DNA from: Paludisphaera rhizosphaerae
Lineage (GTDB): Bacteria; Planctomycetota; Planctomycetia; Isosphaerales; Isosphaeraceae
Length of the DNA: 64,000 bases
Reading direction: 5' to 3'
Assembly (NCBI RefSeq): GCF_011065895.1
Contig: NZ_JAALCR010000016.1
Span: forward strand, 62,001 to 126,000
A model generated the notes under the pieces. It saw only the letters and a list, made by a program, of their open reading frames with translations. It searched no databases and was not told where the DNA came from. The position numbers and the translations under genes were made by a program. Positions 23,186 to 45,302 of this stretch are shown piece by piece. Each line of letters opens with the position of its first letter. Within the stretch, counting starts at the first letter, position 1.

Positions 23186-24148
23186 TCAGGGCCTCGCCGG
23201 AGCAGGCCGCCGGGAGAGTTCTTCGAGGTACGCCCGATGGAATCCGCTCGGGTCGATCGGATCCGCGGTCGGAGAGGCGTGGAGGAAGACGCCGAAGCCC
23301 AGTTTGAACGTCTCGCCCGGCTTGACGACGACCCGGCTCTCCGGCCCCTTCGTGAGCGCCTTGCGACCGAATGGGTTGGCGACGGCCAGCCCGTAGTCGC
23401 GAACGTGGAACCAGCTCACGCGAAAATTGGCCGGGTCGGGGATCAGGCTCGCGCCCGCCCAGTGGCCGTCGACGACCCCGCTGTAGTCGCACCAGGCGGT
23501 GGCCTTGCCGCGGACGCCCTTCTCGTCGCGGTCTCCCTCGGTGTCCATGATCCGCCCGCCCCCTTTCACCGAGAGCGGTGTGGCGACGCGGAAGCCCAGG
23601 CCCATCTCCTCCTGGTCTCCGAAGACGAGATCGCCGTCGACCGCCGTGAACTCGGACTGGAGCGCGAGGAGGTAGCCGGACGACCGAGCGACGACCGTGA
23701 CGCGGCCGACCTCGCGAGCATAGATCGCCCCGCCTGAAGTACGCCGATAAACGTTGCGGACGACGAAGGAGCCCCGGCCCTCGCCGCCGGTCGGTGGTTC
23801 GACGAAAGCCTCGTGCTCGATGGGCGCCTTGTTCCGCCAGGAGTCGGACCCCGAGAGGTCGCCGAACGCCATCCAGAGGCCGGGGTGGAGGTCGGCGTGG
23901 TCGACGGGATCCTTGCCCGCGATCGGCGGATGGTTGCGCGAGAGCTGAACGCCGCCCGGGCCGAACAGGTGGCTGAAATGCGGCCGAGGGATCGTGGAGT
24001 CCTGGTAGACGTAGGTCGCCACGGGGGAGCCGTCGGCCGTGATCCGAATTCGGCCGGGCTCCTGGTGGAACTCGACGTTCGGCTCCGCCGCGCAGGCTGC
24101 GGCCGTAAGGCCAAGGACGAAGACGAGGCCGCTGACAGGTCGATTCAT
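23186..24148 (-). CDS. DUF6807 ('PmoA-like') secreted protein
   Basis: 320 residues, signal peptide to about 21 (AACAAE). Contains PVATYVYQDSTIPRPHFSHL, GPGGVQLSRNHPP and DHADLHPGLWMAFGDLSG, the conserved blocks of DUF6807 (PF14100), a beta-rich family often mislabelled 'methane oxygenase PmoA'. It is not a methane monooxygenase. Histidines in the HPP/DHADLHPG region suggest sugar or metal binding. In planctomycetes and Bacteroidetes the family recurs next to Gfo/Idh oxidoreductases and glycosidases, as here: three bases separate it from the oxidoreductase upstream. Biochemical role unknown. Confidence 0.82.
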   Translation of the reverse strand: MNRPVSGLVFVLGLTAAACAAEPNVEFHQEPGRIRITADGSPVATYVYQDSTIPRPHFSHLFGPGGVQLSRNHPPIAGKDPVDHADLHPGLWMAFGDLSGSDSWRNKAPIEHEAFVEPPTGGEGRGSFVVRNVYRRTSGGAIYAREVGRVTVVARSSGYLLALQSEFTAVDGDLVFGDQEEMGLGFRVATPLSVKGGGRIMDTEGDRDEKGVRGKATAWCDYSGVVDGHWAGASLIPDPANFRVSWFHVRDYGLAVANPFGRKALTKGPESRVVVKPGETFKLGFGVFLHASPTADPIDPSGFHRAYLEELSRRPAPARP

Positions 24149-24151
24149 CGA

Positions 24152-25456
24152 TCAGGCTCCGCGGGGGACGGCCCAGTGGCCCTGGCGGTAGGATCGGCCC
24201 AGGAGACGATCGGCCTCATCGTCGCCCTTGATCCGCTCGGTGGCCGGGTCGAACTGGATCGTGCGGCCGACGCGGGCCGCGATATTGCCGAGGTGGCAGA
24301 GGGACGTCGACCGATGGCCGGTCTCGATGTCGGCGGCCGGGGCGCGGCCTTCGCGGATGGCCGAGACGAAATCAAGCTGGTGGTCGGGGACCTTCGGAAG
24401 CTCTCCCTCGACGGGCCTCGGCTTCCCCTGACGGTCGAAGAGTTTGACGACGCCCCCCTTGCAGAGGATCATCCAGCCCTCGGTGCCGTAGAAGATATCG
24501 CCGTTTTCCTCGCCGTCAGGCTGATAGGGGGACCAGATCCGCATCTCATAGATCAGTTGACGGGGACGGCCGGAGGGCGAGGCGCCCGGGTACTCGAACA
24601 CGACGTTCTGGGTGTCGGGGAACTGCTGGTCGTCGTCGAAGAAGCACTTGGAGCCGATCGCGGCGATCCTGGCGGGATGCTCGTTCACGCCCAGGCCCCA
24701 GCGGGCGATGTCTAGCTCGTGGACGCCGTCGTTCCCCATGTCGCCGGTGCCGAAGTCGTGCCACCAGTGCCAGGTGTAATGGTGACGGTTCGCCTGGAAG
24801 GGGACGAAGGGGGCGGGGCCGACCCAGAGGTCGTAGTCGAAGCCCGGCGGCGGTTCCGACGGAGATGCACGGCCGATACTGTCGCGGCGCTGGACGTCGA
24901 ACGCCTTGGCCACGAGCACCTCGCCGATCGCCCCCTCGTGGAGCAGCCGGATCGCGCGGAGGACCATCGGATTGGATCGGCTCTGCGTGCCGAGCTGGAC
25001 CGTGCGGCCGGTGCGTCGAGCGGCCTCGACCATCAGTCGGCCTTCGCGAAGGTTGTGCGAGCAAGGCTTTTCAACGTAAACATGCTTCCCCGCGTCGACC
25101 GCGAGGATGGTCGCCGGCGCGTGCCAGTGGTCGGGGGCCGCGACGGTGACGGCGTCGATCGAGCGGTCGTTCAGAACCCGACGGAGGTCCGTGACTACCT
25201 TCGGGGTCTTGCCCGTGGCCTTGGCCACCGCCTGAGCGGCGGCCGCCGCGCGTGCCTCGTCGGGGTCGCAAACGTAGCCGACCGTCACGTTCTCCAGGGC
25301 GGCGAACTTCTTTATGAGCGACGTCCCCTGCCGCCCGCAACCGATCGCTCCCAGTGTGATCGAATCCGCCGCGCTGGCCTGGCCCGGCAACGCCGCGACG
25401 GCGGCCAGGCCCGCCACGGCCCCTCCCTGCGTCAGGAATTCTCTTCGGCTCGTCAT
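24152..25456 (-). CDS. Tat-exported Gfo/Idh/MocA family oxidoreductase
   Basis: 434 residues. The N-terminus MTSRREFLTQGGAVAGLAAV is a twin-arginine signal peptide, cleaved near QASAAD. Then GAIGCGRQGTSLI (dinucleotide-binding loop), AVTVAAPDHWHAPATI and VEKPCSHNLREGR (EKP catalytic Lys) and the C-terminal domain with WHDFGTGDMGNDGVHELDIA. Tat export implies it folds with its NAD(P) or with a bound cofactor in the cytoplasm, as in glucose-fructose oxidoreductase and the NAD-dependent glycosidase-like relatives. Redox modification or cofactor-assisted hydrolysis of a released sugar is plausible (inference). Forty-two bases downstream of the DUF5060/DUF4038 gene. Confidence 0.9.
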   Translation of the reverse strand: MTSRREFLTQGGAVAGLAAVAALPGQASAADSITLGAIGCGRQGTSLIKKFAALENVTVGYVCDPDEARAAAAAQAVAKATGKTPKVVTDLRRVLNDRSIDAVTVAAPDHWHAPATILAVDAGKHVYVEKPCSHNLREGRLMVEAARRTGRTVQLGTQSRSNPMVLRAIRLLHEGAIGEVLVAKAFDVQRRDSIGRASPSEPPPGFDYDLWVGPAPFVPFQANRHHYTWHWWHDFGTGDMGNDGVHELDIARWGLGVNEHPARIAAIGSKCFFDDDQQFPDTQNVVFEYPGASPSGRPRQLIYEMRIWSPYQPDGEENGDIFYGTEGWMILCKGGVVKLFDRQGKPRPVEGELPKVPDHQLDFVSAIREGRAPAADIETGHRSTSLCHLGNIAARVGRTIQFDPATERIKGDDEADRLLGRSYRQGHWAVPRGA

Positions 25457-25498: not shown

Positions 25499-27103
25499 TT
25501 AGGGAGTCTTCGCATCCGAGACGCGTCGGAGGCGGACCGCCGTGTACGGCTTGCCGGGCAGAGGAATGCTCGGGCGTTCGGGACAGGCGAACGTATATCG
25601 ATCCGAGGGCGTGACGGTGAAGGTCCCCTCGACGGGCGTGACCGTCATGTCCCAGGCGTCGATCACGTCGACCTGGAACGTCATCGGTTCGTTCATCCGC
25701 GTGCGAGGGATCTTGAAGGGCCATACCTTGGGAGCTTCGCGGCCGAAATAGAAGAGGTAGTATTCTCCTCGCTTGCCGACGGACGGCGATCCCTGCCACT
25801 TGTCGATCGGCTCCAGGCCGTGACTCGGGCCTTCCTCGATGATCTTGCGGAGGAAGGCGATCCGAGGCGGGCTCTGGCCATGGAGGACGCCCCCCTTGGA
25901 CCACCAGATGACCTCGTCGGGACTGAGGTAGGTCTCGCCGTGGCCGACGTAAGTCCCGGCGATCGTCCCCTGCCAGAAGGCGTCGACCATCTCCTGCGCC
26001 GAGAGATGTCCCCAGCGATCGGGGAGGTTCCCCTCGTAGCAAACCTCGTCGAAGACGATGGGCTTGCGGTAGACGTCGCGGTAGAGGACGGCCCGGCCGT
26101 AGTCCTTCGTGGCCGATCCGTTCTGGATGCTCGCGTGGGTGATCCAGGGCTGCGAATGGTTGTAGATCAATGTCCCGTTATGGATCGACCGCAGGTGGTT
26201 GTACGGGTCGGCGTCTCGGACGACCATGAGCATCCGGTCCCAGTCCGACTCACGCTTCTCCTTCATGAAGTCCCACTCGTTGGCCAGGGACCACCAGACG
26301 TTGCGGTACGCGGACAGCCTCGCGACGACGTAGCGGAGATAGCGATCGTCCGCCTCCGCCGGCATGCGGTCGAAGCCCCAACGGCCTTCGTCGTAGGGAT
26401 GCAGCAGGATCACGTCGGCCTCGATGCCGAGGTCGCGGAGCCGTTCGATGCGGTCTTCCAGGTGGCGGAAGAAGTCGGGATTGAACCGAGAAAAGTCCCA
26501 GGTCTTCGGCGGGGTCCCCTCGAAAGGGTAGCGCGGAGGTTCGGCCCGGTTGTAGGTGTATGACTTGGGGAAGACGCACATCCGGATCTTGTTGAAGGGC
26601 GAGTGCGCCAGCGTCTCCAGCGTCTGCGCCTCCAGCGACTCCATCTGATGGGTCCACGCGTAGCAGGTCGTGCCGATCGGGACGTATCGAGTCCCGTCTT
26701 CATACGCGAAGTGGAATTCGTTCCGCACCCGGACTGGGCCGTGGTTCCCCGGCGAGGGAGGCATGACCTCGATACGACCCGTCTTGCCGTCGAGTTCGCG
26801 GCGGTTGCTGTGAGTTGTGTACTCCCAGACTCCTGGACGATCGGGCATGAAGCGAATCCGATAAACGCCCGCGCCGTCGTAGAAGCCCGACGCCTTGAAG
26901 GTCCGCCCCTCCTTCAAGAAGACGGCGGATAGCTCAACGTCCGTGAAGGGATTCCCCTCCGACGGCCCCTGCAGGATGATCTCGGCGACCCCCCACTGCT
27001 CCACGGCGGACGACCCCCTCGAAGGCGCCATGAAGGCGGCGAGGCAGGCCGTGAGGATGAGCCGCAAGGCTGTACGCGCTGGGGAGAGGCGTCTTAAATC
27101 CAT
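25499..27103 (-). CDS. Secreted DUF5060/DUF4038-type glycoside hydrolase
   Basis: 534 residues with signal peptide (to about 31). An N-terminal beta sandwich (DUF5060: about 33-120, GNPFTDVELSAVFLKEGRTF to the end of the PPSPGNHGPVRV linker) precedes a (beta/alpha)8 barrel (DUF4038-like) with GTTCYAWTHQ, FNKIRMCVFPKSY, WWSLANEWDFMKEK and PIVFDEVCYEGN. Glu in ANEWD and Glu in FDEVCYEG are the likely acid/base and nucleophile. The C-terminal beta domain matches DUF5605. Such proteins act on plant or algal polysaccharide side chains; the linkage is unknown. Gap 36 bases from GH127. Confidence 0.85.
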   Translation of the reverse strand: MDLRRLSPARTALRLILTACLAAFMAPSRGSSAVEQWGVAEIILQGPSEGNPFTDVELSAVFLKEGRTFKASGFYDGAGVYRIRFMPDRPGVWEYTTHSNRRELDGKTGRIEVMPPSPGNHGPVRVRNEFHFAYEDGTRYVPIGTTCYAWTHQMESLEAQTLETLAHSPFNKIRMCVFPKSYTYNRAEPPRYPFEGTPPKTWDFSRFNPDFFRHLEDRIERLRDLGIEADVILLHPYDEGRWGFDRMPAEADDRYLRYVVARLSAYRNVWWSLANEWDFMKEKRESDWDRMLMVVRDADPYNHLRSIHNGTLIYNHSQPWITHASIQNGSATKDYGRAVLYRDVYRKPIVFDEVCYEGNLPDRWGHLSAQEMVDAFWQGTIAGTYVGHGETYLSPDEVIWWSKGGVLHGQSPPRIAFLRKIIEEGPSHGLEPIDKWQGSPSVGKRGEYYLFYFGREAPKVWPFKIPRTRMNEPMTFQVDVIDAWDMTVTPVEGTFTVTPSDRYTFACPERPSIPLPGKPYTAVRLRRVSDAKTP

Positions 27104-27139: not shown

Positions 27140-29227
27140 TTACGATCGGCCGAGCGGCATCCAGACGGACATCTCCGAATGGCCGCGGTTGCCCCACGCG
27201 AAATAGGGAACGAGCCGCAGGTCGAACGGTCGCTGCGGGGCGGTGGGCAATTCGCGGTAGAGCTTCCCGGACCAGTCGGGCTCGCGCCAGGCCTCGGCGT
27301 GGCCTTCCAGGACGGTCACGCCGCCCAGGAGCTTGGCGTCGTACCGAGGCTTGAAATTGACGGCCCGAGGGATGACCACGTCCTGCACGCGGACCCCTTC
27401 AGGAAGGTCGCTCGACTCGACGCAGTAGACGATCGGTCCGCGCTGGATGGCTACCTGATTGCGAGCCTCTTCGACCAGCGGGTTCGCCTCCATCAGCCGC
27501 GTGGGCATGGGGAGCGCCAACTCGACGAGGTCGCCCGGCTTCCAGGTCTGTCGGACTTCCGCGTACGAGCCGGCGAGAGGTCGCGGCTGCTCGACGCCGT
27601 TGACGCGCACCGACGCCTCGGCCGCCCAACCGGGGATGCGAAGCAGGATCGAGACCGCCTGCGCCGGGGCCTCGGCGATGGTGAGCGAGACCCGGCCGTC
27701 CCAGGGGTAGTCCGTCGTCTGCGTGAGCCGGAGCCGGCCGACTTCGAGCGTCGTGTCGAGGTTGTTGCCGCCGTAGAGGTGAACCCAAAACTGGTCCTTC
27801 GACCGTCCATAGGCGAAACCGGCCGATTCGGCGATGGTCCGAACCAGATTGGGGGGGCAGCAGAAACAACTGATGAACGGCTCGCGATGGCGATTCCAGC
27901 GCAGGTCGGCGGGCAGGGAGTCGAGCTGTCGGAGCGTGTTCGTGTAGAAGTAGCGCGTCCCTTCCAGGCTGACGCCGGCCATCGCGGCGTTCAGAAGGGT
28001 CGTCTCCATCACGTCGGCGAATCGAGCTTCGCCCGTGACCTGGAGCATCCGCTGATTCCAGAGCAAATTGCCGATCGCCGCGCAGGTCTCGTTGTGGGCC
28101 AGGCTCTGCGGAAGCTGGTAGTCTCGACCGTACGACTGGTGGACGCGGCTGATCGACTTCTGATCCTTGACCCCTTCGGGAGAGGCCCCGTCGAAGAGGG
28201 CGCCGCAGCCACCGGTGATCGCCAGCTTGTGGGTTGCGACGTCCTCCCAGACGGCCAGCAGCGGGGTGAGTAGGCTGGCGTCGCCGGTCTCGACCAGAAC
28301 GTCGGCCGCGCCCGCGTAGAGGTAATTCGCCCTCGCGGCATGGCCGGCTGCCTTGGTCTGACGGCGGAACGGGATCCGGTCCTGGTTGTCGTCGGTGCCC
28401 CCCTCGACGAGGTCGCGGGCGTCGATCAGGGCCCGAGCAAGCTCCAGATAGCGCGGGTCGCGGGTCGTCCGGTAGAGTTCGACGATCCCCATGTAGTGGG
28501 CCGGACAGACGGCGTTGCGAGCGAGTTCCCTCGTCCGGACCTTCGACACGGACACCAGATAATCCCCGGCCTTCACGGCGACGGCCAGCAGGTTGGATTT
28601 GCCCGTCGCGCGATGGTGGACGCAGGCGGCCGTCATCAGGTGGCCGAGGTTGTAGGCCTCGAAATCCAGGCTGTCGAGGAACGGCTCGGCGCTCGTGTCG
28701 CCGCTGCGCGCCCGGATCTGGACGGGGGTGTGGAGATAGCCGTCCTCGCGCTGGGCCTTGGCGACAATGCCGATCACCTCGTCGAGCCGGCGATCGAGCG
28801 ATTCGTCCCATTCTCGCGCCAGCAAGGCGGAGGCGGCCTCGATCCATTTGTAGAAATCGCCGTCGTTCCACTTGGGGCCGCGGTGTCGGCCTTCGGCGAG
28901 ACCCGCGGCGATCTTGAAGTTCTGCAGGAACTGGGTCGGCTCCGTGCCGCTCATCAATTCCCACATCGACGGGACCATCGACTCGCGGCAGACGGTGAAA
29001 CGATCGGCCCAGAAACCGCGCGTCCACGAGACCTCGCCGAGTCCGATGCTCCTCGTCTTCAGGCAGGGGCTTTGCGACGTGTCCATCAAGCCGAGGTCGC
29101 GTCGCCCTCGGCTGGTGCTCATCCACGGCGCCTGTCCCGCCGCGCGACGCAGCGAGCCGAGGCCGCCCAGGACGAGCCCCGCGCCCGAGGCGAGGAAGGA
29201 ACGGCGATCGAGTCGGAATCGGCTCAT
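27140..29227 (-). CDS. GH127 beta-L-arabinofuranosidase
   Basis: 695 residues with a Tat-type N-terminus (DRRSFLASGAGLVLGG). The zinc-thiolate active site of GH127 is complete: Glu380 and Cys382 (NETCAA) and Cys456-Cys457 (FCCPPN), matching Glu338, Cys340, Cys417 and Cys418 of Bifidobacterium HypBA1, where Cys417 is the nucleophile. The barrel is followed by beta-sandwich domains from about 480 with LLRIPGWAAEASVRVNG. Releases beta-L-arabinofuranose from glycans such as pectin side chains or hydroxyproline-rich glycoproteins. Family 127 is normally cytoplasmic; export by Tat here implies extracytoplasmic action. It lies 24 bases after the beta-helix giant. Confidence 0.93.
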   Translation of the reverse strand: MSRFRLDRRSFLASGAGLVLGGLGSLRRAAGQAPWMSTSRGRRDLGLMDTSQSPCLKTRSIGLGEVSWTRGFWADRFTVCRESMVPSMWELMSGTEPTQFLQNFKIAAGLAEGRHRGPKWNDGDFYKWIEAASALLAREWDESLDRRLDEVIGIVAKAQREDGYLHTPVQIRARSGDTSAEPFLDSLDFEAYNLGHLMTAACVHHRATGKSNLLAVAVKAGDYLVSVSKVRTRELARNAVCPAHYMGIVELYRTTRDPRYLELARALIDARDLVEGGTDDNQDRIPFRRQTKAAGHAARANYLYAGAADVLVETGDASLLTPLLAVWEDVATHKLAITGGCGALFDGASPEGVKDQKSISRVHQSYGRDYQLPQSLAHNETCAAIGNLLWNQRMLQVTGEARFADVMETTLLNAAMAGVSLEGTRYFYTNTLRQLDSLPADLRWNRHREPFISCFCCPPNLVRTIAESAGFAYGRSKDQFWVHLYGGNNLDTTLEVGRLRLTQTTDYPWDGRVSLTIAEAPAQAVSILLRIPGWAAEASVRVNGVEQPRPLAGSYAEVRQTWKPGDLVELALPMPTRLMEANPLVEEARNQVAIQRGPIVYCVESSDLPEGVRVQDVVIPRAVNFKPRYDAKLLGGVTVLEGHAEAWREPDWSGKLYRELPTAPQRPFDLRLVPYFAWGNRGHSEMSVWMPLGRS

Positions 29228-29251: not shown

Positions 29252-32200
29252 TCAGGGGCCGGGCGTTTCGCCGTCCGCCGCACCGTCGGTGGTCAGCCAC
29301 AGAAGAGTCGGCCCCGCGTCGGCCGCGAGGAATTTCACGGGCCCGCCTCCGCGCACGGTCTCAGTCGACGAGTCGACGCGACCGGTCTTCGGATCGACCC
29401 GCCGGGCCGAGAAACCCGCACGCTCATGAGACAGGTCGACGACGACGGGATCACTCGCGCCAGCATACACAAGGTAATTGCGTCCGGGATCACCCAGGAT
29501 CCATTTCCGGTCGTCGGATTCGGAGCGACCGATCGGTTGCATCCGAGGGACGGCGCGGAGTAGACGGGGGTCGACGCCGATGGGAAGGGGAGCCAGCGAT
29601 CCTCCTGCCGCGAGGGTCGCCCAGCCGTCGTCGGGCGCGTCGGCGACGATGACGGCCTTCGTCGGGAAGCGGTCGCGATACTCCCGAACCGCCCGGGCGG
29701 TGGCTTCCACAGATCGTTTCTTCGTCCCCTTCCACTCGCGCTGCTGTTGCCGAGGAGCGAGGTTCTCGCCGCCCCTGGGAGCATAGAGCGAGCCGTCGGC
29801 CAGGTACCACCAGTATTTCAGCTCGATGACCGACACCAACGGCCCTCGGACCGGGTCGGCGAGGATCGCGTCCTGGACGTCCTTGGTCGCGCTCAGGCCG
29901 ATCAGGACCTTGCGGCCCGTCTCGCGCTGCCACTCGGCGACGACGTCGAACCAGAACTGCATGAAGTGCAGCGGCCCCGTGAACTCGTCGCCCGTGAGGA
30001 AGACGACGTTGGGATGCCGGCCGAGAACATCCAGGCAGTGCCGGATGTACGATCGGTGGAGTGCTCGGCGGACCGCGTGATCGACGTCGTAGAAGTGGTC
30101 GGCCATGAAGATGCGTTTGCCGCCAGCGTAGGGGGGAGGCTCCGGGAAGCCCGTGTCCTGCAGGCAGTTCGCCGGCCGCCAGGGGAAGTCAGCCCAGTGG
30201 GCTCCGGCCTCGAGAATGTTGTGCTGGAAGTAGGCCTGGTGGATGAGCACCAGTCCTTTGCGGTCGCAGTGGCCGGCGAACTCGTCGAGGCGGTTGAAAT
30301 ACCAGGGATTGAAGCGTTCCAGGTCATACTTGCTGAGCCCGTCCCAGGCCGTGCCCCGACCACTCCGCGCCCACGGCTGTTCCAGGAAAGGCGCCCAGAC
30401 GTCGCCGTCAATGCGACGGGCCATCTGGTGGTCGTCGCGGCGGCGGTCGTACCAGAGGCCCCAATGATGCTCAAGCGCCGATTTGCCCGTGCGAGTCATC
30501 AGGTCGGTCAGATCGTCGAGGTCGTCGGTGAAGCCCGGCCCCTCGCGGCCGGGGACGAATCGGGTCACGCCCACGCCGAACTCGCCGCCGCGCGTCGGCA
30601 GGGCGCTTCCGCGCCACCAGGTTGTGCCGATTCGCCCGCCGGTCAGCACGGAGTCGTCACGGGTCAGCCAACCGTTCTGAAGGGTCAGCGGTGCGACAGG
30701 CGCGGGAGGCTTCGAAGCGATCGTCGGTGAATCGTCGCGAGTCGATGAAGGGATGCCGTGTTCGGAGTGTTTCCGAGGCTCCAGCGTCTTCAGTGCGCTG
30801 GGGCCGAGCCGCTCGGCGAGTTGCGCCCGGTAGAGGCTCTCCGGCTTGACGAACTCGTTGGGTGCCTGCCACTCGCCGTCGCCGAAGAACTGGCCCCAGC
30901 AGCCGATCGCCCAGTTGTGCGCGCCCGGCGGCTTCCGGCAGGTCACCACCGAGGCCGAGCATTGCCAGAGCACGCTGTTGGCACCAGCCCATCCCGCCCC
31001 CTGGCCTTCGGTCTCGCGGTTGGTCAACGAGAGGCCGGCGCCGTCGATCTTGACGTTGTCATAGAGGACGCCCGTCGCCCAGCTTTCGACCGGGCCGCTG
31101 AAGCCGAGCGGCTCCGTTGCGGTGCATTCCACATAGGCGTTTGGCCCCGGCGTCAGAGCCCCGACGGCGAAATCATGCCTTCCCTGACTGGAGCGGCAGC
31201 GAAGGAAAAGCGTGCTCTGGCCGGACGTGATGAAGGCGTCCCGCCGTCGGCCGCCGATCTCCGAGACCGGCTCGACCGACTCGCAGTCCTGGACGGTGAC
31301 CTGTTTGGAGCCGTCGAGGATTCGGACCGTGGAGCCGGCGAAATGCGCCGCAGCCAGGTTGCGGACCCAGACGTTCTGGGCGGCGTCGATGCGGACGGCG
31401 TCCCAGGCGTGTTCCTCGTCGCGGGGGTTGCTGGGGTCGAAGGCCGATTCGCAGCGCAGATCTTCAACGCCGACCCGTTCGATTCGGCCGTCCCAGGTGT
31501 ATCGCTGGATCGTCGCCGTCCCAAGCTTGGCGTCGATCGCATCCGTCAGGGGAGCATCGAGAGTCATCACGGCCCCGTCGACGGCGGTGACGACGCGGTC
31601 TGAGAGGCCCGTCATCGCGCCGGGGCGCCAGTTCAGGGAGCCCTCATACCCCAGGGGGAATCGGTCCATCCCCAGGGCGGCGATCCACTCGGCCGTGGCG
31701 GGCCGGACGATCGCGACCGCATCGCCGACGCGAAAGCCGGAAGTACGGTCGAGCGTCAGTCGAATCGAGCCGACGGGGACGTAGGCGTCCACAACGCGGG
31801 AGGTGCCTTGCGAGTCGTACTGACGTTCGCCGCGACCCTCGATTCGGATCAACGGCCGCCGTCCGATCCCCGAGGCGACCAGGACGGTCGCCGCCCCCTC
31901 GCCTCGAAGGACGACGCCGCTCGTCGTGATCCGAAGGCTGCCGGCGACTTCATGGCGGCCGGCTCGAAGGAGAACCGCACCGCGGAATCCGAGGGAGTCT
32001 GCGGGGAGCGAGGCGATTCGATCGAGGGCGGCCTGAATTCGCGCCGTGGCGTCGCCGGGATCAGGGGCGATCACGATTCGCGTCGGCACATCGGGGATCT
32101 CGACGCCGCCGCCGCCGTATCCGGCGTGCGAGAAGTCGGGGATCCGGTCGCCTCGGTCGTCGGCCGTGTAGACGAGTTTGCCCGCCTTGTCGACGCTGAG

Positions 32201-32299
32201 ATACTGCGGCGGCGGAGGTCCGGCCGCCGTCGCAGTGCTCACCGAGACAACGACGGCTAGCAGGGCCTGCAGAGGTGCTCGTCGCGGGACCGAAATCAC
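29252..32299 (-). CDS. Giant secreted fusion: right-handed beta-helix plus DUF6298-like glycosidase-type domain
   Basis: 1015 residues, signal peptide to about 25. Residues about 35-500 form a pectate-lyase-like parallel beta-helix (DATARIQAALDRIASLPAD, GAVLLRAGRHEV, SGVVLRGEGAATVL, WDAVRIDAAQNVWVRNL). Residues about 560-990 hold an unrelated domain with WGLWYDRRRDDHQM, FNRLDEFAGHCDRKGLVLIH, VFLTGDEFTGPLHFMQFW and ELKYWWYLADGSLYAP, which looks like a TIM-barrel hydrolase (DUF6298-like). The start overlaps the stop of the upstream pectate lyase by four bases, so translation is probably coupled. Substrate unknown, but the context is pectin. Confidence 0.75.
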   Translation of the reverse strand: MISVPRRAPLQALLAVVVSVSTATAAGPPPPQYLSVDKAGKLVYTADDRGDRIPDFSHAGYGGGGVEIPDVPTRIVIAPDPGDATARIQAALDRIASLPADSLGFRGAVLLRAGRHEVAGSLRITTSGVVLRGEGAATVLVASGIGRRPLIRIEGRGERQYDSQGTSRVVDAYVPVGSIRLTLDRTSGFRVGDAVAIVRPATAEWIAALGMDRFPLGYEGSLNWRPGAMTGLSDRVVTAVDGAVMTLDAPLTDAIDAKLGTATIQRYTWDGRIERVGVEDLRCESAFDPSNPRDEEHAWDAVRIDAAQNVWVRNLAAAHFAGSTVRILDGSKQVTVQDCESVEPVSEIGGRRRDAFITSGQSTLFLRCRSSQGRHDFAVGALTPGPNAYVECTATEPLGFSGPVESWATGVLYDNVKIDGAGLSLTNRETEGQGAGWAGANSVLWQCSASVVTCRKPPGAHNWAIGCWGQFFGDGEWQAPNEFVKPESLYRAQLAERLGPSALKTLEPRKHSEHGIPSSTRDDSPTIASKPPAPVAPLTLQNGWLTRDDSVLTGGRIGTTWWRGSALPTRGGEFGVGVTRFVPGREGPGFTDDLDDLTDLMTRTGKSALEHHWGLWYDRRRDDHQMARRIDGDVWAPFLEQPWARSGRGTAWDGLSKYDLERFNPWYFNRLDEFAGHCDRKGLVLIHQAYFQHNILEAGAHWADFPWRPANCLQDTGFPEPPPYAGGKRIFMADHFYDVDHAVRRALHRSYIRHCLDVLGRHPNVVFLTGDEFTGPLHFMQFWFDVVAEWQRETGRKVLIGLSATKDVQDAILADPVRGPLVSVIELKYWWYLADGSLYAPRGGENLAPRQQQREWKGTKKRSVEATARAVREYRDRFPTKAVIVADAPDDGWATLAAGGSLAPLPIGVDPRLLRAVPRMQPIGRSESDDRKWILGDPGRNYLVYAGASDPVVVDLSHERAGFSARRVDPKTGRVDSSTETVRGGGPVKFLAADAGPTLLWLTTDGAADGETPGP

Positions 32300-33789
32300 G
32301 GCCGCGCCCCCTGGCTCGGCGAGCCGGAGCGAAGCGTGTTGCGGTTGTTCTCCGCCTTGGTGTAATCCAGGAACGTCGATGGATCGGTGCCGTTGAGGTG
32401 TTCCTCGATCGCAGTGTAGCCGTCGTGGTCGGCGTCGGAGGAGGCGTCGGCCGGATTCGTCGGGTCGAGGCCGTGCAGCCGCTCCCAGGCGTCGGGCATG
32501 CCGTCGCGATCCGTGTCTTCCGGGGTCGTGGAGGCCCGGTACTCGGGCCAGCCGCCGACGTCCGCGGGGGAGTCGATGATGCCGTCGCCGAAGGTCGGCT
32601 TGCCGCTGCGGACCGTGGCGATGACGCGCTCGTCGACGGGGTCGCGGCGCGGCAGGGTCGCACCGACGTCGGCCATCACTCGCTCATAGGCGGATTCGGC
32701 CGATTCGGTCTCGACGGCCGGCGCGGGGAACTCGGTGCGTGAGCGAGCCTCAGCCTCAGTCACCTTGGGGATGACGATCCCCTTGTCCATCCCGGCCTCG
32801 TCGAAATAGACGCCGCCGGCCCAGTTGTCGGACGTGATCGATGGGTAGCCGTCGACATAGTTCCCCTCGACGTACCAGAGGCCTCCGCCCGGGTAATCTG
32901 TGCGGGGCGAGCGGCCCTGAAGGCGGCAGATCCGGTGCCGGAGAAGCTCGTCCTTCGTCGCCGGCCCAGCCTTGTAGTAGTTGTTGACGAGGTTGACCCG
33001 AGAGCTGCCGTCGCCGCCGTCGGCCGTGCGGTGGACCCAGTTGAAAATCACGTTGTTGCGGTAGTCGAACAGGCCGTTCATGCCGATGCTCGGGTTTCGG
33101 CCCGTGTTGCTGGCGAACAGGTTGTGGTGGAAGGAGCAGGGCTGGCCGCCCCAGGTCCCGCCGAACGCGTGGTTGTATCGGTTGAGGGCCTCGCTGGAGA
33201 TCGACCACTGGATCGTGACGTGCTCCAGCGGCATCTTCTTTAATGTCGGGCCCTCTCCCTTGATCCACCGATAGAGCGAGAGGTTCTCATCAAGCCCCCA
33301 ACTCGCCGAGACGTGATCCACGATCACGTTGGCCACCGGGTAGCCCCCCAGCGCGTCGTCGCGAACCTTCAGGTTCCCTCGGCGGAACCGCATGTACCGG
33401 ATGACGACGTCGTGCGTGTTGATGTGGACGCTCTCTCCCCGGACGCAGACCCCGTCGCCGGGAGCGGTCTGGCCGGCGAGCGTCAGGTAGGGATGCGTGA
33501 TGTCGACCGGCTTTTCCAGCGTGATCAGCCCCGCGACGCCGAAGACGACCGTCCGCGGGCCCTCGGCTTCCAGCGCCTCTCGGAATGAGCCGGGGCCGGA
33601 ATCAGCCAGCGAGGAGACGACGAAGACCTTGCCCCCTCGGCCGCCGGGCGTGCCTGCCCCGGAGCCTTCCGCGCCGGGGAAGGCGGGGACCTTCGGCGTT
33701 TCGCGGGCCCCGGCCGGCGTCAGAGCGCCCCAGGCGAGGCCTGCGGCCGCGGCCGCGATTCGCAGGGGACGCGTCCCGATCGACGTCAT
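32296..33789 (-). CDS. PL1-type pectate lyase with C-terminal calcium-repeat domain
   Basis: 497 residues with signal peptide (to about 28, GARETP). The beta-helix begins with FPGAEGSGAGTPGGRGGKV and runs through ADSGPGSFREALEAEGPRTV, HPYLTLAGQTAPGDGVCVRG, VIVDHVSASWGLDENLS and FHHNLFASNTGRNP, the layout of PL1 pectate lyases; the DHVSASWGLDEN block carries calcium-binding acidic residues. The C-terminus (about 425-470) has DTDRDGMPDAWERLHGLD and SSDADHDGYTAIEEHLNG, thrombospondin-type-3/EF-like repeats. Cleaves polygalacturonate-type chains by beta-elimination outside the cytoplasm. Second gene of the operon, 58 bases after DUF1559. Confidence 0.88.
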   Translation of the reverse strand: MTSIGTRPLRIAAAAAGLAWGALTPAGARETPKVPAFPGAEGSGAGTPGGRGGKVFVVSSLADSGPGSFREALEAEGPRTVVFGVAGLITLEKPVDITHPYLTLAGQTAPGDGVCVRGESVHINTHDVVIRYMRFRRGNLKVRDDALGGYPVANVIVDHVSASWGLDENLSLYRWIKGEGPTLKKMPLEHVTIQWSISSEALNRYNHAFGGTWGGQPCSFHHNLFASNTGRNPSIGMNGLFDYRNNVIFNWVHRTADGGDGSSRVNLVNNYYKAGPATKDELLRHRICRLQGRSPRTDYPGGGLWYVEGNYVDGYPSITSDNWAGGVYFDEAGMDKGIVIPKVTEAEARSRTEFPAPAVETESAESAYERVMADVGATLPRRDPVDERVIATVRSGKPTFGDGIIDSPADVGGWPEYRASTTPEDTDRDGMPDAWERLHGLDPTNPADASSDADHDGYTAIEEHLNGTDPSTFLDYTKAENNRNTLRSGSPSQGARP

Positions 33790-33847: not shown

Positions 33848-34828
33848 TCAATAGGCGTCGGAGGAGACGACCTCGCCCCCGTCCTTCGTGCTGAGGGCCC
33901 TCCAGGTCGTCAGGTTGACCGAATCCTTGATGAACTTCACGCTTCCGTCGCAGAAGAGGACGTTCACGCCGCCGCCGTGGTAGCTGCGGGCCGCATTGAA
34001 TTCGCGCTGGGCGCCCGAAGCCTGGAAGCAGGGAGGGGTCAGAGCCGGGCCTGGGCAGCCGCCCGAGCCGTCGAGCTGGTCGACGATCGCGGAGTTCGGG
34101 GCCGTGGCCGCAGTGAACATGTAACCGCATTTCGTGGTGCCTGACCAGACGTCGCCGCGAGCGTCCGACTTGCTCCCCGTGTCGGGGACGATCTTGATCT
34201 CGCTGGCCATCGTCGTGTTGCTGGTGCCGTCGATGATGTCGCGGATGCTGTACGGGACGATGGCGTTCGTCGTATTGTTGACCCGGAACGGGCCGCGGAT
34301 CGACGTAACGCTGTCGAAACCGTTGCCGATCACCGCAGGGGCGAACGAATCGGTCGGCGTCATGTTCTGGACGTAGTCGGAATTGCCGAAATTGACCATG
34401 TAATTGCCCTTCGCTCGATTCGGAATGGTCGCCGAATTCGAGAGCCACATCGCGCCTGCGAGCGGATCAGAGGGGCAGTTGAAGATGGAGATCTTCATCT
34501 GGATGACCGTCATGTTGAGGAGCGACGTCGACGCCTGCGACATGTTGGCGGCGTTGTAAGCCGGCACCTGTTCCAGGTAGGGGAGCAACAGGAAGACCCA
34601 GCTCTGGGCGGGGCTGTTCTTGGCGCCCCAGGGGAAATTCCCCTGCACATCATGATGGTTCATCATCCCCAGACCGATCTGCTTCAGGTTGTTCACGCAC
34701 TGAATCCGCCTCGCCGCAGACCGGGCGGCCTGAACCGCCGGCAACAGCAGAGCGATCAGCACGGCGATGATCGCGATGACGACCAGAAGCTCGATCAGCG
34801 TGAAGCCGCGAGAGCGCCGAGTGCCCAT
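33848..34828 (-). CDS. DUF1559 protein with prepilin-type N-terminus
   Basis: 326 residues. A type IV pilin-like leader (RGFTLIELLVVIAIIAVLI, cleavage before Phe) is followed by LLPAVQAARSAARR and the DUF1559 body with NNLKQIGLG, WGAKNSPAQSW, a central IIDGTSNT block and the C-terminal FCDGSVKFIKDSV and STKDGGEV motifs. This family is greatly expanded in Planctomycetes (dozens to hundreds of copies per genome) and is thought to be surface or pseudopilus-associated. GGAGGTACGT precedes the ATG. It is the first gene of the polysaccharide operon, next to the twin palindromes, so it may assist secretion or glycan capture (inference). Confidence 0.95.
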   Translation of the reverse strand: MGTRRSRGFTLIELLVVIAIIAVLIALLLPAVQAARSAARRIQCVNNLKQIGLGMMNHHDVQGNFPWGAKNSPAQSWVFLLLPYLEQVPAYNAANMSQASTSLLNMTVIQMKISIFNCPSDPLAGAMWLSNSATIPNRAKGNYMVNFGNSDYVQNMTPTDSFAPAVIGNGFDSVTSIRGPFRVNNTTNAIVPYSIRDIIDGTSNTTMASEIKIVPDTGSKSDARGDVWSGTTKCGYMFTAATAPNSAIVDQLDGSGGCPGPALTPPCFQASGAQREFNAARSYHGGGVNVLFCDGSVKFIKDSVNLTTWRALSTKDGGEVVSSDAY

Positions 34829-34956: not shown

Positions 34957-35020
34957 ATCCCACTGAGACCTCAGCGGGATTTCTCTATTGCTGGTTGCGA
35001 TCCTACTGAGATCTCAGTAG
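34957..35020. promoter_or_regulatory. Two operator-like palindromes between DUF1559 operon and GntR gene
   Basis: Site 1 (34957-34980) is a 24-bp palindrome with two mismatched pairs; site 2 (35003-35020) is the perfect 18-bp palindrome CTACTGAGATCTCAGTAG. Both share the core ACTGAGA-YCTCAG and their centres are 43 bp apart (about four helical turns). They lie between divergent genes, 87-150 bases from the GntR start and 129-192 from the DUF1559 start. This is the arrangement expected for a regulator that controls both its own gene and the operon. Confidence 0.65.
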
Positions 35021-35106
35021 AATCTCAAGAAGAATTCGACGAAAATTTCTCGAAGTCAGAATGCATGTCTTGAACATCTTGATTTGAATCATAAGAGGTG
35101 GTGTCG

Positions 35107-35835: not shown

Positions 35836-37992
35836 ATGTTCGCAGCGATTCCGACGGCGTGCGCTCTCATCCTGGCCGCGGCGGCCGGAGACGCTTCGAT
35901 CCGAGTCGACCTGAATCCCGACAACGGCCGGGGCGACGTCGTCACCCAGGGTCGGGAGAACTGGCCCTTCAACCCGACGCATCCGTCGCGAGAGTTCGCC
36001 GGAGTCGCCGTGGCGTTCCGGTCGCAGTCCCCCCTGGTGGTTCGCTGGTACAAACCTCTCCTCGCCTATGGCGCAACTCAGGCGTCGGACGGCGTGGCCG
36101 CATCGGGATCGCTGGAGATCGTCCTGACCGGCCTCAAGCCGGGGCCTCATACCCTGGCCACCTTCCACAATCGACTTGAGGAAGGTCCCGTCCCCAGTTA
36201 CGACGTCTCCGTCGCAGGCAAGCCGCTCGTCAACGGATTGACTCCAACGACGCGTATCCACGACGACGCCGACGCCGCCTGCGCCTTTATCGAGTTCACG
36301 GCTGGCGCCGAGCCGACCGTCGTCACGATCACGGCGAAAGGAGGCGATGGCGAGGTCATCGTGAACGGCCTTGAGATCGATTCGTCCGACCCGAACCACC
36401 GGGCGATCAAGCCGTCGCCCTTTAACGGCGACAGTCACGTGGACGCCGAGTCAGGCTCCGCTCTCTTGAGTTGGACCTCTCGCGAACCGGCCGCACGTCA
36501 TCGGATCTACTTCGGCGCCGATCGCGCGGCGGTCGAGGCCGCCGAGCCGTCGTCGCCTGAATTCCGAGGCGAATCAACGACCGCCACGTCCAGGGCCGAG
36601 GGGCTTTCCAGCCATCGTGACGCCTTCTGGCGCGTGGACGAAATCTCCCCTACCGGCGCGGTCACGCGTGGCGACGTCTGGTCGTTTCGGCCGCGTCACC
36701 TGGCGTTCCCAGGGGCTGAAGGCTACGGAAGATTCGCCCGAGGCGGTCGCGGAGGCCGGGTGATTGAGGTCGTCAACCTGGACGACTCCGGCCCCGGCTC
36801 CTTCCGCGCCGCGGCCGAAGCCCAGGGGCCGCGCACGGTGGTTTTCCGCGTCTCTGGAGTCATCCGGCTAAGGTCGGCCGTGTCCGTGCGGAACTCCTAT
36901 TTGACCGTGGCCGGTGAGACGGCGCCTGGCGACGGGATCTGTTTTCGAGGCTACATGGTGGGGACGGCTCCCAGTTCGAGCGATGTGATCATGCGTCACA
37001 TTCGGGTCCGCCCCGGGGACGAGTCCAACCACTCGGTCGATGGCATGGGACTTGGCGGCGACCACACGATCTTCGACCATTGCTCCGTCAGTTGGTCGAT
37101 CGACGAAGGGCTCGACAGCCGGTCGGCCAGGAATTCGACGTTCCAGCGCTGCATGATCTCGGAGGCTCTGAACGACTCGTTCCAGCGGCATCCGCACTCG
37201 TACGCCGGTTCGATCGGCGGGAACCTGGTCAGCTATCACCACAACCTGCTGGCCCACTGCGCGGGGAGAAACTGGTCGCTCGCGGGAGGCTACGACCAGG
37301 CGGTACGGTTCGCCGGTCACATGGACATCCGCAACAACGTCGTCTACAACTGGGAGCATCGGACGACCGACGGCGGCGCGAAGCGCGTCAACTTCGTCAA
37401 CAACTACTACAAGCCCGGCCCCGCTACTCGCGTCTTCCACCTCGTGAAGCCCGACGTGGGCTCCGAGTCCGACCGCCAGGTCTACTACATCGCCGGCAAC
37501 TTCATGGAAGGCCGACCCAGCTACGACGACGACAACTGGAAGGGCGTCACGCCCAACGGAACCGCTCCGCTCGCCGAGTTCCGCTCGGACCAGCCGTTGT
37601 TCCCCTCCTACGTCACGACGACCTCGGCCGCCGAGGCGTATCGCGACGTTCTGGCGGACGTCGGCGCGACGCATCCCCGCCAGGATTCACTCGATCGCCG
37701 CGTCATCGAAGAAACCCGCACGGGAACGGTCTCCCTTCGAGGGAGCAAAACCGGGCTCCCCGGAATCATCGACGTCCCCGGCGACGTTGGACCGTCCCCC
37801 TGGCCCGACTACCAGACCCGCGACGTTCCGGTCGACTCCGATCACGACGGTCTCCCCGATGAGTGGGAGCGGCGTCATGGGCGAAATCCCTCGTCGCCGG
37901 CCGGTGACTTCTCCGACTCCAACGCCGACCCCGACGGCGATGGTTACACCTTGCTCGAAGACTATCTCCACGAGCTGGCGTCGCAGCCTTGA
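35836..37992 (+). CDS. Multidomain PL1-type pectate lyase
   Basis: 718 residues. Signal peptide (to about 19), an N-terminal malectin-like beta domain (about 20-185, IRVDLNPDNGRGDV...VNGLEID), a fibronectin-III-like domain (about 195-285, with SALLSWTSREPAARHRIYFG and DVWSFRPR), then a beta-helix lyase from about 288 (FPGAEGYGRFARGGRGG, DDSGPGSFRAAAEAQGPRTV, DHCSVSWSIDEGLD at about 414, YHHNLLAHCAGRNW) and a calcium-repeat tail (DSDHDGLPDEWERRHG...DPDGDGYTLLEDYL). The catalytic part is a paralogue of the gene at 32296. It starts 30 bases after the GntR gene on the same strand, so the two probably share a transcript. Confidence 0.88.
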   Translation: MFAAIPTACALILAAAAGDASIRVDLNPDNGRGDVVTQGRENWPFNPTHPSREFAGVAVAFRSQSPLVVRWYKPLLAYGATQASDGVAASGSLEIVLTGLKPGPHTLATFHNRLEEGPVPSYDVSVAGKPLVNGLTPTTRIHDDADAACAFIEFTAGAEPTVVTITAKGGDGEVIVNGLEIDSSDPNHRAIKPSPFNGDSHVDAESGSALLSWTSREPAARHRIYFGADRAAVEAAEPSSPEFRGESTTATSRAEGLSSHRDAFWRVDEISPTGAVTRGDVWSFRPRHLAFPGAEGYGRFARGGRGGRVIEVVNLDDSGPGSFRAAAEAQGPRTVVFRVSGVIRLRSAVSVRNSYLTVAGETAPGDGICFRGYMVGTAPSSSDVIMRHIRVRPGDESNHSVDGMGLGGDHTIFDHCSVSWSIDEGLDSRSARNSTFQRCMISEALNDSFQRHPHSYAGSIGGNLVSYHHNLLAHCAGRNWSLAGGYDQAVRFAGHMDIRNNVVYNWEHRTTDGGAKRVNFVNNYYKPGPATRVFHLVKPDVGSESDRQVYYIAGNFMEGRPSYDDDNWKGVTPNGTAPLAEFRSDQPLFPSYVTTTSAAEAYRDVLADVGATHPRQDSLDRRVIEETRTGTVSLRGSKTGLPGIIDVPGDVGPSPWPDYQTRDVPVDSDHDGLPDEWERRHGRNPSSPAGDFSDSNADPDGDGYTLLEDYLHELASQP

Positions 37993-38263: not shown

Positions 38264-39202
<939 letters not shown>

Positions 39203-39227
39203 TCAAGGCCCTGGAAAGGGTCGACGG

Positions 39228-40460
39228 TCATGAATTGGTCAGCACGCTGAACACGGCGTCGAAAGCGGGCTTGGGTCGCAGGTCGCGATCCCAGAGCAGG
39301 GGGTGGTTGGTTCGACGGAAGACCGGCCAGAAGTTCAGCCAGGAGCTGCCGTCGTGGACGCCCCAGAACGTGACGCGGCTCACGACGCCCGGGTGTTTGA
39401 GGAGAACTCGGAAGAGGCGATCGTAAAACTGGGCCTGCGACGCCGCGACGTCGGGAGGCAGGCCGTTGGTGTAGGGGTCGGCTCCCCTCTGTTCACGAGC
39501 GGCGACGTCCGCCCCTCTCGTCCGACGAGGAAGCACGTCGACGTCCAACTCGCTGACGACGATCTTCACGCCCTCCGAAGCGTAGGCGGTGATCGCCCGG
39601 TCGAGCCTATCCACGGCGGTAGGGTCGTCGAGCCTGAAATGCGACTGAATGCCGACGGCGTCGAGACGGACGTTCCGGGCTTTCAACTCGCGGACCAGGC
39701 GAAGCGTTCGTTCGAGCTTCCCGGGGGTTTCGTTGCCGTAGTCGTTGTAGTAGAGTTCGGCGTCGGGATCAGCCGCGTGGGCGAATTCGAACGCCTGAGC
39801 GATATAGTCGTCGCCGATGGCCTGACGGGCCGGGGTGTCGCGAAGATACCGGCCCTCGCCGTCGTTGTCGCTGATCGCCTCGTTGACCACGTCCCACCCG
39901 ACGACCTTGCCCCGGTAGCGTCCCACGACCTTGTCGATGTGCGTCTTGAGATTCCTCAGCGCCTCGTCGCGCGGCAGCGGTTTTCCATCCGGGCCGCGGA
40001 ACATCCACGACGGCGCCTGGCTGTGCCAGCAGAGGGTATGACCGACGACCTTCTGATCGTGCTTCCGGGCGAACTCCACGATCGCGTCGGCCGCCTCGAA
40101 GTTGAACACCCCCGGCTGCGGCTGGAGCGCTCTGGGTTTGAACTCGTTCTCGGCGGTCAGAACGTCGAACTGATCGGCGATCAACTCGGACGCCCTCGGC
40201 TCGCGAAGCTGCCGCGACGAGACCGCCGTCCCGATCAGGAACCTCCCCTCCACGGCCCTTCGAAGGGACCTGGTCGTCGCTCCGCTTTCGAGGGATCCGG
40301 CCGGGGACTGGCCGTAAGCCCGTGCGGGCCCGACAAAGCTTATCAGGGCGGCGAGCAGCAGGAATGTCGCGGCACCCAGGGACGCAATGCGGCCAGGCGG
40401 TTTGCCGTCGCCGACGAACTTTCCAGGGCTCTGGTCGAGACCTGCAATCGGGCATCTCAT
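39228..40460 (-). CDS. GH10 endo-1,4-beta-xylanase
   Basis: 410 residues from the ATG at 40460 (GAGGGA nine bases upstream; GTG at 40478 is an alternative). Signal sequence around residues 28-50. The (beta/alpha)8 barrel has VVGHTLCWHSQAPSWM, GWDVVNEAISDND with acid/base Glu194, and VKIVVSELDVDV with nucleophile Glu304, plus the conserved NDYGNE and IQSHF motifs. Hydrolyses internal beta-1,4 links in xylan. The first gene of a two-gene operon with the esterase and divergent from a LacI regulator. Confidence 0.95.
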   Translation of the reverse strand: MRCPIAGLDQSPGKFVGDGKPPGRIASLGAATFLLLAALISFVGPARAYGQSPAGSLESGATTRSLRRAVEGRFLIGTAVSSRQLREPRASELIADQFDVLTAENEFKPRALQPQPGVFNFEAADAIVEFARKHDQKVVGHTLCWHSQAPSWMFRGPDGKPLPRDEALRNLKTHIDKVVGRYRGKVVGWDVVNEAISDNDGEGRYLRDTPARQAIGDDYIAQAFEFAHAADPDAELYYNDYGNETPGKLERTLRLVRELKARNVRLDAVGIQSHFRLDDPTAVDRLDRAITAYASEGVKIVVSELDVDVLPRRTRGADVAAREQRGADPYTNGLPPDVAASQAQFYDRLFRVLLKHPGVVSRVTFWGVHDGSSWLNFWPVFRRTNHPLLWDRDLRPKPAFDAVFSVLTNS

Positions 40461-40523
40461 GAAGCGTCCCTCATCCACCAGGGCCGTCGTCGACGCACCG
40501 TCGACACCCCCTGGACAGGGCTA

Positions 40524-40537
40524 GGCAATCGCTTACC
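40524..40537. promoter_or_regulatory. Candidate LacI-family operator
   Basis: GGCAATCGCTTACC has the central CG and partial two-fold symmetry (GG..AA.CG.TT.CC) of LacI/CcpA-family operators. It lies between the divergent xylanase and LacI genes, 64 bases before the xylanase start. Two pairs are mismatched, so this is a suggestion only. Confidence 0.4.
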
Positions 40538-40678
40538 ATGATGAGGAGTCTACACGCATCCTACCGCGTGTCAACGACACGGCGACACCGCGCGCGGACT
40601 CTCTCAATCGTCGCTGCTCCGTCCGTCGCCGGCCGGGCGTTCTCTTCTCGCCGTCCTGCCTCGCGTGGAGCCTGTCCT

Positions 40679-41749
40679 GTGCAACGCCGACCCACCCTCT
40701 CGGACATCGCCAGGCTTTGCGGGGTGACCGCCTCCACGGTCAGTCGGGTTCTCAACAAGAAGCCGTCGTTCTCAACCAGTCCGGAAGTTCGTCGGAAGAT
40801 CGAGGAGACCGCCGAGCAACTCGGCTACGTCCCTGACCTCGCCGCGAGGAACCTCAGCCGGCGCACGACGCGTGTGGTCGGCCTCTTCGCATCGCCGGCG
40901 ACGCACGTCTCAGAGGGTATCTACGAGCCGTTGATCGAGGGGGTTCTGGAAGCCCTGCACGCGAGCGACTACGACGTGTTCTTCGACCTGAGCGCCAGCC
41001 GGGGCCGCCGTCTCCCGTTCTGGCGATTCGACGGAGCGCTTCTGCTGCAATGCCCGCGTCCCGAGACGGTCGAGGAACTGGACCGCCGTCGCGTCCCCTA
41101 CGTCTGCGTGAACGAAACGGTTGGTTCTCCCGTCGTGCGGGTTCTCGCGGACGACGGCATGGGGATGCGGCGAGCCGTCGAGCATCTGGCGCAACTGGGG
41201 CACCGTCGACTGGCCTACGCCAACGCGCGGTCGAATTCGCTGCCCCACTACTCGATCGCCGAGCGCCATGAGACGCTTCTGGCTTGCTCCAAGGAACTCG
41301 GCGTCGACCTTGTCGGGCTTCATGATGCTCCGTTCGCCGATGCGAAGGAGTTCATCGTCTCGACCGTGGTCGACCAGGGGGCGACGGCCGTGATCACTTA
41401 CGATCATCAGATCGCCGTCGCCATCGTCGGCGCGGCGGCAGGACTGGACCTGCGGATCCCGGAGGACTTCAGCCTCCTCTGTTTCAACGACGTTTTCCCC
41501 GTCGTACTCATGCCCACGCCCCTGACGGCCGTGAGCGTGCCGGCGCGGGAGATGGGGCGGGTCAGCGGGCGTCGATTGCTTGAGAATCTGGCGATCCGCG
41601 GACCGAACGAGGCGAAAGAGATTCGACTGCCGGAAGAGCTTGTCGTCCGCCTCTCGACGGCGCCCCCCCGCCGGGAAGGCCGCGCCTTGGGCCGCAACCG
41701 GCCTGAATCCTCGAGGAGCCACCAGCGTCAGGAACTCCATACCGAGTGA
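40679..41749 (+). CDS. LacI-family transcriptional regulator
   Basis: 356 residues from the GTG at 40679, which places the HTH (RPTLSDIARLCGVTASTVSR, VLNKK, hinge EQLGYVPDLAARNLSR) at the N-terminus as usual and has GGAG eight bases upstream; the longer frame from 40538 adds 47 low-complexity residues. The sugar-binding periplasmic-binding-protein-like domain follows (VVGLFASPATH, AVEHLAQLGHRRLAYANA, GATAVITYDHQIAVAIV, PLTAVSVPAREMGRVSGRRL). It probably represses the divergent xylanase-esterase operon until xylo-oligosaccharides are present. Confidence 0.9.
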   Translation: MQRRPTLSDIARLCGVTASTVSRVLNKKPSFSTSPEVRRKIEETAEQLGYVPDLAARNLSRRTTRVVGLFASPATHVSEGIYEPLIEGVLEALHASDYDVFFDLSASRGRRLPFWRFDGALLLQCPRPETVEELDRRRVPYVCVNETVGSPVVRVLADDGMGMRRAVEHLAQLGHRRLAYANARSNSLPHYSIAERHETLLACSKELGVDLVGLHDAPFADAKEFIVSTVVDQGATAVITYDHQIAVAIVGAAAGLDLRIPEDFSLLCFNDVFPVVLMPTPLTAVSVPAREMGRVSGRRLLENLAIRGPNEAKEIRLPEELVVRLSTAPPRREGRALGRNRPESSRSHQRQELHTE

Positions 41750-41804
41750 ATCTCGGAGAGGCCGGCGCCAGGATCCGTGGTCTGCCCTTGCAACCTCAGA
41801 CGCC

Positions 41805-43682: not shown

Positions 43683-43822
43683 GGCCGTCGCCTCTCGCGG
43701 GTCACGGAGCTAGGATTCTGAAGGAATTCGGCGAAGGGTGACTCCAGTCTACCAGCCGATGCGGCGTGCGGAAAGCGTCTCCACGGTAGAATTCGGATCT
43801 TTTCTTATTTGGCGAAACTTGG

Positions 43823-45289: not shown

Positions 45290-45302
45290 CCTCCTTCAGT
45301 GC

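Follow-up and report, generated by a model that had tools for sequence, protein, structure and literature searches.

The consensus operator of GntR regulators is NyGTNxACNy and that of the FadR subfamily is TKGT/ACMA; NanR and BioR are published exceptions to the GT...AC rule (PMC4494728). Both the FadR subfamily, with E. coli FadR, and the regulator described here belong to the same winged-helix family, and the comparative data set of that subfamily does not list Planctomycetota among its taxa (PMC4494728). In Agrobacterium fabrum the VanR-type FCD repressor Atu1419 has one palindrome between its own -35 and -10 elements and a second one in the divergent region, an arrangement also predicted for the present locus. 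The operator of Atu1419, ATGTATACAT with GT...AC, is different, as is the spacing of its sites, which lie 190 bp apart and are looped; Arg45 of this protein reads the guanine of GT and Arg86 contacts citrate (PMC7797058). A comparable layout is also known from E. coli acrR/acrAB, where the autorepressor AcrR shuts two divergent overlapping promoters, those of its own gene and of its target (PMC12825309), as is proposed here. The acrR/acrAB promoters share one -10 element, whereas two full predicted promoters surround one palindrome at the present locus, and AcrR is of the TetR family, whereas the present regulator is of the GntR/FCD type. On the enzyme side, BT1003 is the member characterised as an aceric acid hydrolase in the enzyme family that the GH127 protein of the present operon resembles (PMC10850190). 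Relatives of the regulator also occur in apionate and isoapionate clusters (OiaK, OiaX, ApnL), whereas the operon studied here is one for polymer breakdown.

Here we describe a candidate pair of regulator and operator for the breakdown of pectin in planctomycetes, found in a 64-kb window (the whole stretch of DNA analysed). Two palindromes in the window are very probably operators of the adjacent GntR/FCD regulator, through which it would repress both itself and the divergent pectin operon. The operator departs from the GntR rule, yet it is kept over several phyla, and the pair points to sugar acids of rhamnogalacturonan-II as the effector class.

Two palindromes in the divergent intergenic region

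The start of the DUF1559 gene (34828, minus strand) and the ATG of the GntR/FCD gene (35107) are separated by 278 bp, and this gap holds both palindromes (Table 1). The initial annotation had described twin palindromes with a common core in the divergent gap, one of them perfect over 18 bp and with centres 43 bp apart, and this description was confirmed in the sequence. In the dyad of site 1, 10 of 12 pairs match, the exceptions being the central and the seventh pair; in site 2, 11 of 12 pairs match and the perfect 18-bp palindrome spans 35003-35020. The centres lie at 34968.5 (site 1) and 35011.5 (site 2), exactly 43 bp apart, and the midpoint of the gap (34967.5) is close to the position of site 1. 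A single 18-bp palindrome is weak evidence, because the window has four perfect ones where base composition would lead one to expect about 0.6, and a lone palindrome, at four per window, was therefore rejected as evidence. Sites 1 and 2 are also direct repeats of 33 nt with 76% identity, and this near-repeat of the whole block is a stronger sign than a lone perfect palindrome.

Table 1. Position of the predicted regulatory elements and of the genes at the regulator locus
Feature	Position	Strand	Basis
DUF6807 protein, last operon gene examined	23186..24148	-	PF14100 2.7e-38
Gfo/Idh/MocA-type oxidoreductase, Tat-signal match	24152..25456	-	profile matches
Apiosidase-like (DUF5060/PF13204/DUF5605) protein	25499..27103	-	domain matches
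GH127, aceric-acid-hydrolase type (putative rhamnogalacturonan-II marker)	27140..29227	-	NF049879 943 bits, cut-off 950
DUF6298 protein	29252..32299	-	PF19815 2.2e-179
Pectate-lyase-like protein	32296..33789	-	PDB 9buj pectate lyase 2e-51; NCBIfam PelZ 9.4e-37
DUF1559 prepilin-like, first gene of divergent operon	33848..34828	-	Pfam PF07596 5.5e-50
Site 1 (auxiliary operator, predicted), ATCCCACTGAGACCTCAGCGGGAT	34957-34980		sequence
-35 hexamer TTGCGA, predicted rightward (regulator) promoter	34995..35000	+	consensus match; peak geometry over 46 operators
Site 2 (main operator, predicted), ATCCTACTGAGATCTCAGTAGAAT	35000-35023		sequence; conservation upstream of orthologues
-10 hexamer TAGGAT, predicted leftward promoter, 17-bp spacer	35000..35005	-	consensus match only
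-10 hexamer TAGAAT, predicted rightward promoter, 17-bp spacer	35018..35023	+	consensus match
-35 hexamer TTGAGA, predicted leftward (operon) promoter	35023..35028	-	consensus match
GntR/FCD regulator, 232 aa	35107..35805	+	Pfam GntR PF00392 6.4e-16, FCD PF07729 6.9e-27
Secreted pectate-lyase-like beta-helix protein, 30 bp behind regulator	35836..37992	+	PDB 9buj 1.1e-46; PelZ 1.1e-29

The genome of 8.05 Mb, in which the window lies on contig C16, was searched with the pattern YACTGAGAYCTCAGYR. With 0 mismatches the pattern was found at three places, namely sites 1 and 2 and C7:187448. No third copy had been noticed in the window when it was first read, and the genome search likewise found only sites 1 and 2 there. 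A random scatter of the motif through the genome, raised in the initial annotation as a possible objection, was not seen; the three exact places all lie upstream of two sister regulators. With up to three mismatches the genome total of 182 falls under the 273 of the reversed control, so that this genome shows no broader set of background sites. A wider regulon in the same genome was rejected, since the places with two mismatches are nearly all intragenic and the counts stay below the control.

A second GntR/FCD gene, whose product is 80% identical to the window regulator over 225 residues, follows the copy at C7:187448, with about 90 bp between this copy and the conserved part of the gene. The window regulator and the C7 paralogue should both bind the same sites. 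Seven FCD genes are present in the genome, and the motif is absent upstream of those unrelated FCD genes whose upstream DNA was inspected. In five other species of the genus no match of comparable strength to the regulator or the paralogue was found, a distribution that suggests either that the gene was acquired and then duplicated or that other species lost it. The paralogue (L025:6678-7433, G000:C7) has one operator copy and no pectin genes alongside. Its operator is immediately preceded by a long inverted repeat, GGTTCTGAGATT...AATCTCAGAACC, with a T-rich stretch behind it; this repeat, which reuses the words CTGAGAT/ATCTCAG, probably terminates the gene upstream.

Conservation of the site with the regulator

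Of 397 Planctomycetia genomes, 42 had a match to the regulator with an E-value up to 1e-25. Twenty exact copies of the 14-mer core ACTGAGATCTCAGT were counted in the same 397 genomes, spread over 18 of them; 19 of these copies lie at the locus of a regulator orthologue and the remaining one lies inside a coding region. At the genome level, the association of ACTGAGATCTCAGT with the regulator is highly significant (Fisher p = 1.4e-17). A search with two close paralogues as query gave no relative, and a second one with an alignment of 12 members gave 141. Relatives in named records were mostly from Planctomycetota, and further ones were from Bacillota, Deinococcota, Actinomycetota, Chloroflexota and Verrucomicrobiota. 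Within 420 bp upstream of 99 relatives, a site was found in 20, 35 and 49 cases with at most 0, 1 and 2 mismatches, respectively, while a control of 60 shuffled palindromes gave averages of 0 (1 mismatch) and 0.08 (2 mismatches). When two variant cores were counted as well, 61 of the 99 relatives had a site. No site could be recognised in the scanned 420 bp of the other 38, of which some are later genes of an operon with the site before the operon. The site is thus kept upstream of the paralogue and of the orthologues, which bears out the earlier assignment of the palindromes to the adjacent GntR/FCD regulator.

A second locus with two sites at the 43-bp spacing was not found; the relatives have a single promoter operator, and some have an extra operator copy before another gene. 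The two-site spacing was therefore rejected as a conserved feature, and because this arrangement is not conserved, the role of site 1 has to be read from the window locus alone. By every comparative measure the feature is real and functional.

Promoter geometry and proposed mode of repression

Upstream regions of 46 planctomycete loci were aligned on the palindrome and scored for TTGACA-17-TATAAT. The hexamer match peaked with the palindrome inside the 17-bp spacer, at 7.46 of 12 as against a mean of 3.15 over all offsets. The predicted promoters of the window score 9 of 12 on each strand, and because site 2 and its flanks are nearly symmetric, the spacer of the leftward one is occupied by this site as well. 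A better symmetric pair was observed in genome G177, with 10 of 12 on both strands. Leftward scores with and without a divergent gene were 6.2 and 5.1, respectively (p = 0.03), a modest contrast. Site 1 falls within the predicted leftward transcript, some 25 bp past its start, and precedes the rightward promoter. The distance of 43 bp corresponds to about 4.1 helical turns, so that the two sites are in phase and on the same face of the helix. Control of both the regulator and the pectin operon, as it had been put forward at first, agrees with these positions, as predicted promoters of both coincide with the sites and the operon is a pectinolytic one.

Site 2, in the 17-bp spacers of the predicted promoters of regulator and operon, would be the main operator. 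Because it fills both spacers, a single dimer on this site should keep RNA polymerase off in either direction and so halt the two transcripts. As an auxiliary operator, site 1 would act mainly leftward and strengthen repression of the operon, most likely as a road-block or through cooperative side-by-side binding. Release of the repressor would follow when a carboxylated sugar, probably set free from rhamnogalacturonan-II, binds to the FCD domain. This scheme draws on comparison of sequences, i.e. on the sites, which are linked almost only to this regulator clade and lie in predicted promoters, and on the second sites before homologous targets; from it we infer that the regulator binds and that it represses rather than activates. 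The switch would be of an ordinary kind; its operator sequence is unusual, its predicted two-way promoter compact and its ligand plausibly of a new class.

Repression might also be brought about by looping rather than occlusion, if a tetramer bridged both sites in the way proposed for Atu1419, which is tetrameric, binds two palindromes and forms a 190-bp loop seen by electron microscopy (PMC7797058). Looping had been among the suggestions of the initial annotation, and two in-phase sites 43 bp apart would accord with a bridge of this kind. A distance of 43 bp is, however, far under that in Atu1419 and short for a DNA loop, the spacing was found at no other locus, and occlusion needs no more than the one site within the promoter that most relatives have. 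Looping over 43 bp thus found no support and is considered unlikely. The regulator might instead activate, remodelling the promoter from the spacer in the manner of MerR without any repression; the location of the site exactly between -35 and -10 would suit this. No remodelling is needed, however, because the spacer already has the optimal length of 17 bp, and an FCD regulator with a site in the same position, Atu1419, represses (PMC7797058). Activation therefore appears quite improbable.

The palindromes are self-complementary and intergenic, as would be expected of RNA hairpins acting as attenuator or terminator in the leaders. There is very little room for this reading, given that both predicted starts lie downstream of site 2, that the position of this site relative to the promoter hexamers is fixed across genera, that neither site has a T-run behind it and that conservation of the site tracks the clade of the regulator protein. 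Although perfect 18-bp palindromes are not rare in the GC-rich window, where four were found, a repeat element or a chance pair of palindromes with no regulatory function is hardly credible; the genome has three copies only, all of them upstream of two sister regulators, and chance is already contradicted by conservation throughout the class and across phyla.

Probable target genes and substrate

Seven genes of the leftward operon were examined, with gaps between genes of -4 to 58 bp. In comparison with the 943 bits of the GH127 protein in the window, other GH127 matches in 45 genomes of the family reached at most 497 bits on the aceric acid hydrolase model. GH127 homologues linked to the same regulator clade occur in at least four other genomes, G073, G082, G186 and G315, and scored 840-959 bits there, with 959 in G082. 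Aceric acid is regarded as specific to rhamnogalacturonan-II, and apiose is one of the constituents of this pectin domain. Together with the scores of the aceric-acid-hydrolase-type GH127 proteins, this suggests that the substrate of the operon is probably rhamnogalacturonan-II rather than plain polygalacturonate.

In 1.14 Mb of regulator neighbourhoods, 16 further sites were found (at most 1 mismatch, variant ACTTAGATCTAAGT included). None of these was intragenic and most were located 15-100 bp before a start. Genes with such second sites in other genomes were DUF1559-like (G315) or DUF6298/beta-helix-like (L199, an uncultured Pirellula, in which the likeness to DUF6298 was judged from the N-terminal sequence), i.e. 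of the same kinds as in the window operon. Others were Sde182-type and TonB-receptor genes (L184) and a sulfatase-like gene (G136), and in Bacillota genes of the OiaX-type RuBisCO-like protein or the OiaK-type kinase. The commonest neighbours of the regulator in planctomycetes were DUF1501/PSD1 pairs. Past the pectin genes, the window contains an esterase, a GH10 protein, a LacI-type regulator and an apparent DUF1501/PSD1 pair (38264-48437).

The regulator protein and its likely effector

The regulator consists of an N-terminal GntR winged helix and a C-terminal FCD domain, as in other members of the GntR/FCD group. The NCBIfam cut-offs of the named FCD equivalogs (PhnR, NanR, LldR, PdhR, UxuR, FadR) were not reached, the best score being 107.8 bits against a cut-off of 271.5 for PhnR. 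The FCD metal residues D147, H151, H196 and H218, and also Arg101, are invariant in 12 relatives. By sequence alignment only, the four residues correspond to the metal site of Atu1419 and Arg101 to its Arg86, so that the residues of the zinc and carboxylate pocket are alike in the two proteins. Because the metal-site residues and the citrate-contacting arginine are conserved in this alignment, the effector is likely to be a carboxylate.

Regulator relatives in Bacillota and in some planctomycetes lie in or beside OiaK/OiaX/ApnL-type genes, all of which score under the equivalog cut-offs. OiaX was modestly enriched in genomes with the regulator (5 of 42, versus 10 of 355; p = 0.014). These neighbours and the link to aceric acid suggest a branched sugar acid as effector. 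The window genome has no OiaX, and its operon is without the OiaK, OiaX or ApnL neighbours that would mark an apionate regulator. Sensing of uronates such as galacturonate, the effector favoured at the outset, was not supported; the marker enzyme points to rhamnogalacturonan-II and relatives are found at apionate/isoapionate genes. The regulator of Bacillota is a candidate apionate repressor. In Ammoniphilus, Shouchella and Gracilibacillus (Bacillota), the variant ACTTAGATCTAAGT was observed before OiaX-like or OiaK-like genes, with the regulator inside the operon. The variant site lies 3592 bp upstream of the regulator in L196 and 1393 bp upstream in L225.

A probable operator of non-canonical sequence

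Boxes of the GntR type, GT...AC, were sought in the core of the window sites and were absent; the core is CTGAGATCTCAG, i.e. GAGATCTC, whereas a sister clade does show CTGGTATACCAG. By its protein the regulator is thus a GntR/FCD member, and its operator is non-canonical. Alignment with the E. coli FadR site, AACTGGT...ACCAGTT, showed a common outer ACTG...CAGT, while the centre is AG/CT at the window site as opposed to the GT/AC boxes of the FadR subfamily. The base-reading Arg45 of Atu1419 is replaced by Lys in most relatives of the window clade and by Thr in the window proteins. A text search of the open literature for the core TGAGATCTCA returned no title or abstract on a GntR operator.

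A sister clade has His or Gln at position 64 and sites CTGGTATACCAG or CTGGCATGCCAG, with the cores GGTATACC or GGCATGCC. Genome G008 contains one regulator of each kind, each with matching sites. In a tree calculated without the DNA-binding columns, a single clade (93/61 support) unites the proteins with His or Gln at position 64; the change of helix and site therefore counts as a single event, which does not pin it statistically to the residue. Residue 64 is not claimed as a proven specificity switch, as several other columns change alongside. It is conceivable, though we put this forward only tentatively, that an FCD clade spanning several phyla and responding to aceric acid, apionate and related branched sugar acids of rhamnogalacturonan-II left GT...AC for GAGATCTC, and that one clade within it moved to GGTATACC/GGCATGCC as position 64 of the recognition helix went from Arg/Lys to His/Gln, so that even G008 alone would hold orthogonal operators. 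Because the centre of the site changes with the recognition helix in the sister clade, the DNA-reading code of FCD/FadR regulators could be tested with a few point mutants. An asymmetric site, CTGGCATTCCAG, was observed in G354 and G230 (L128, L129), where helix position 64 is Gln.
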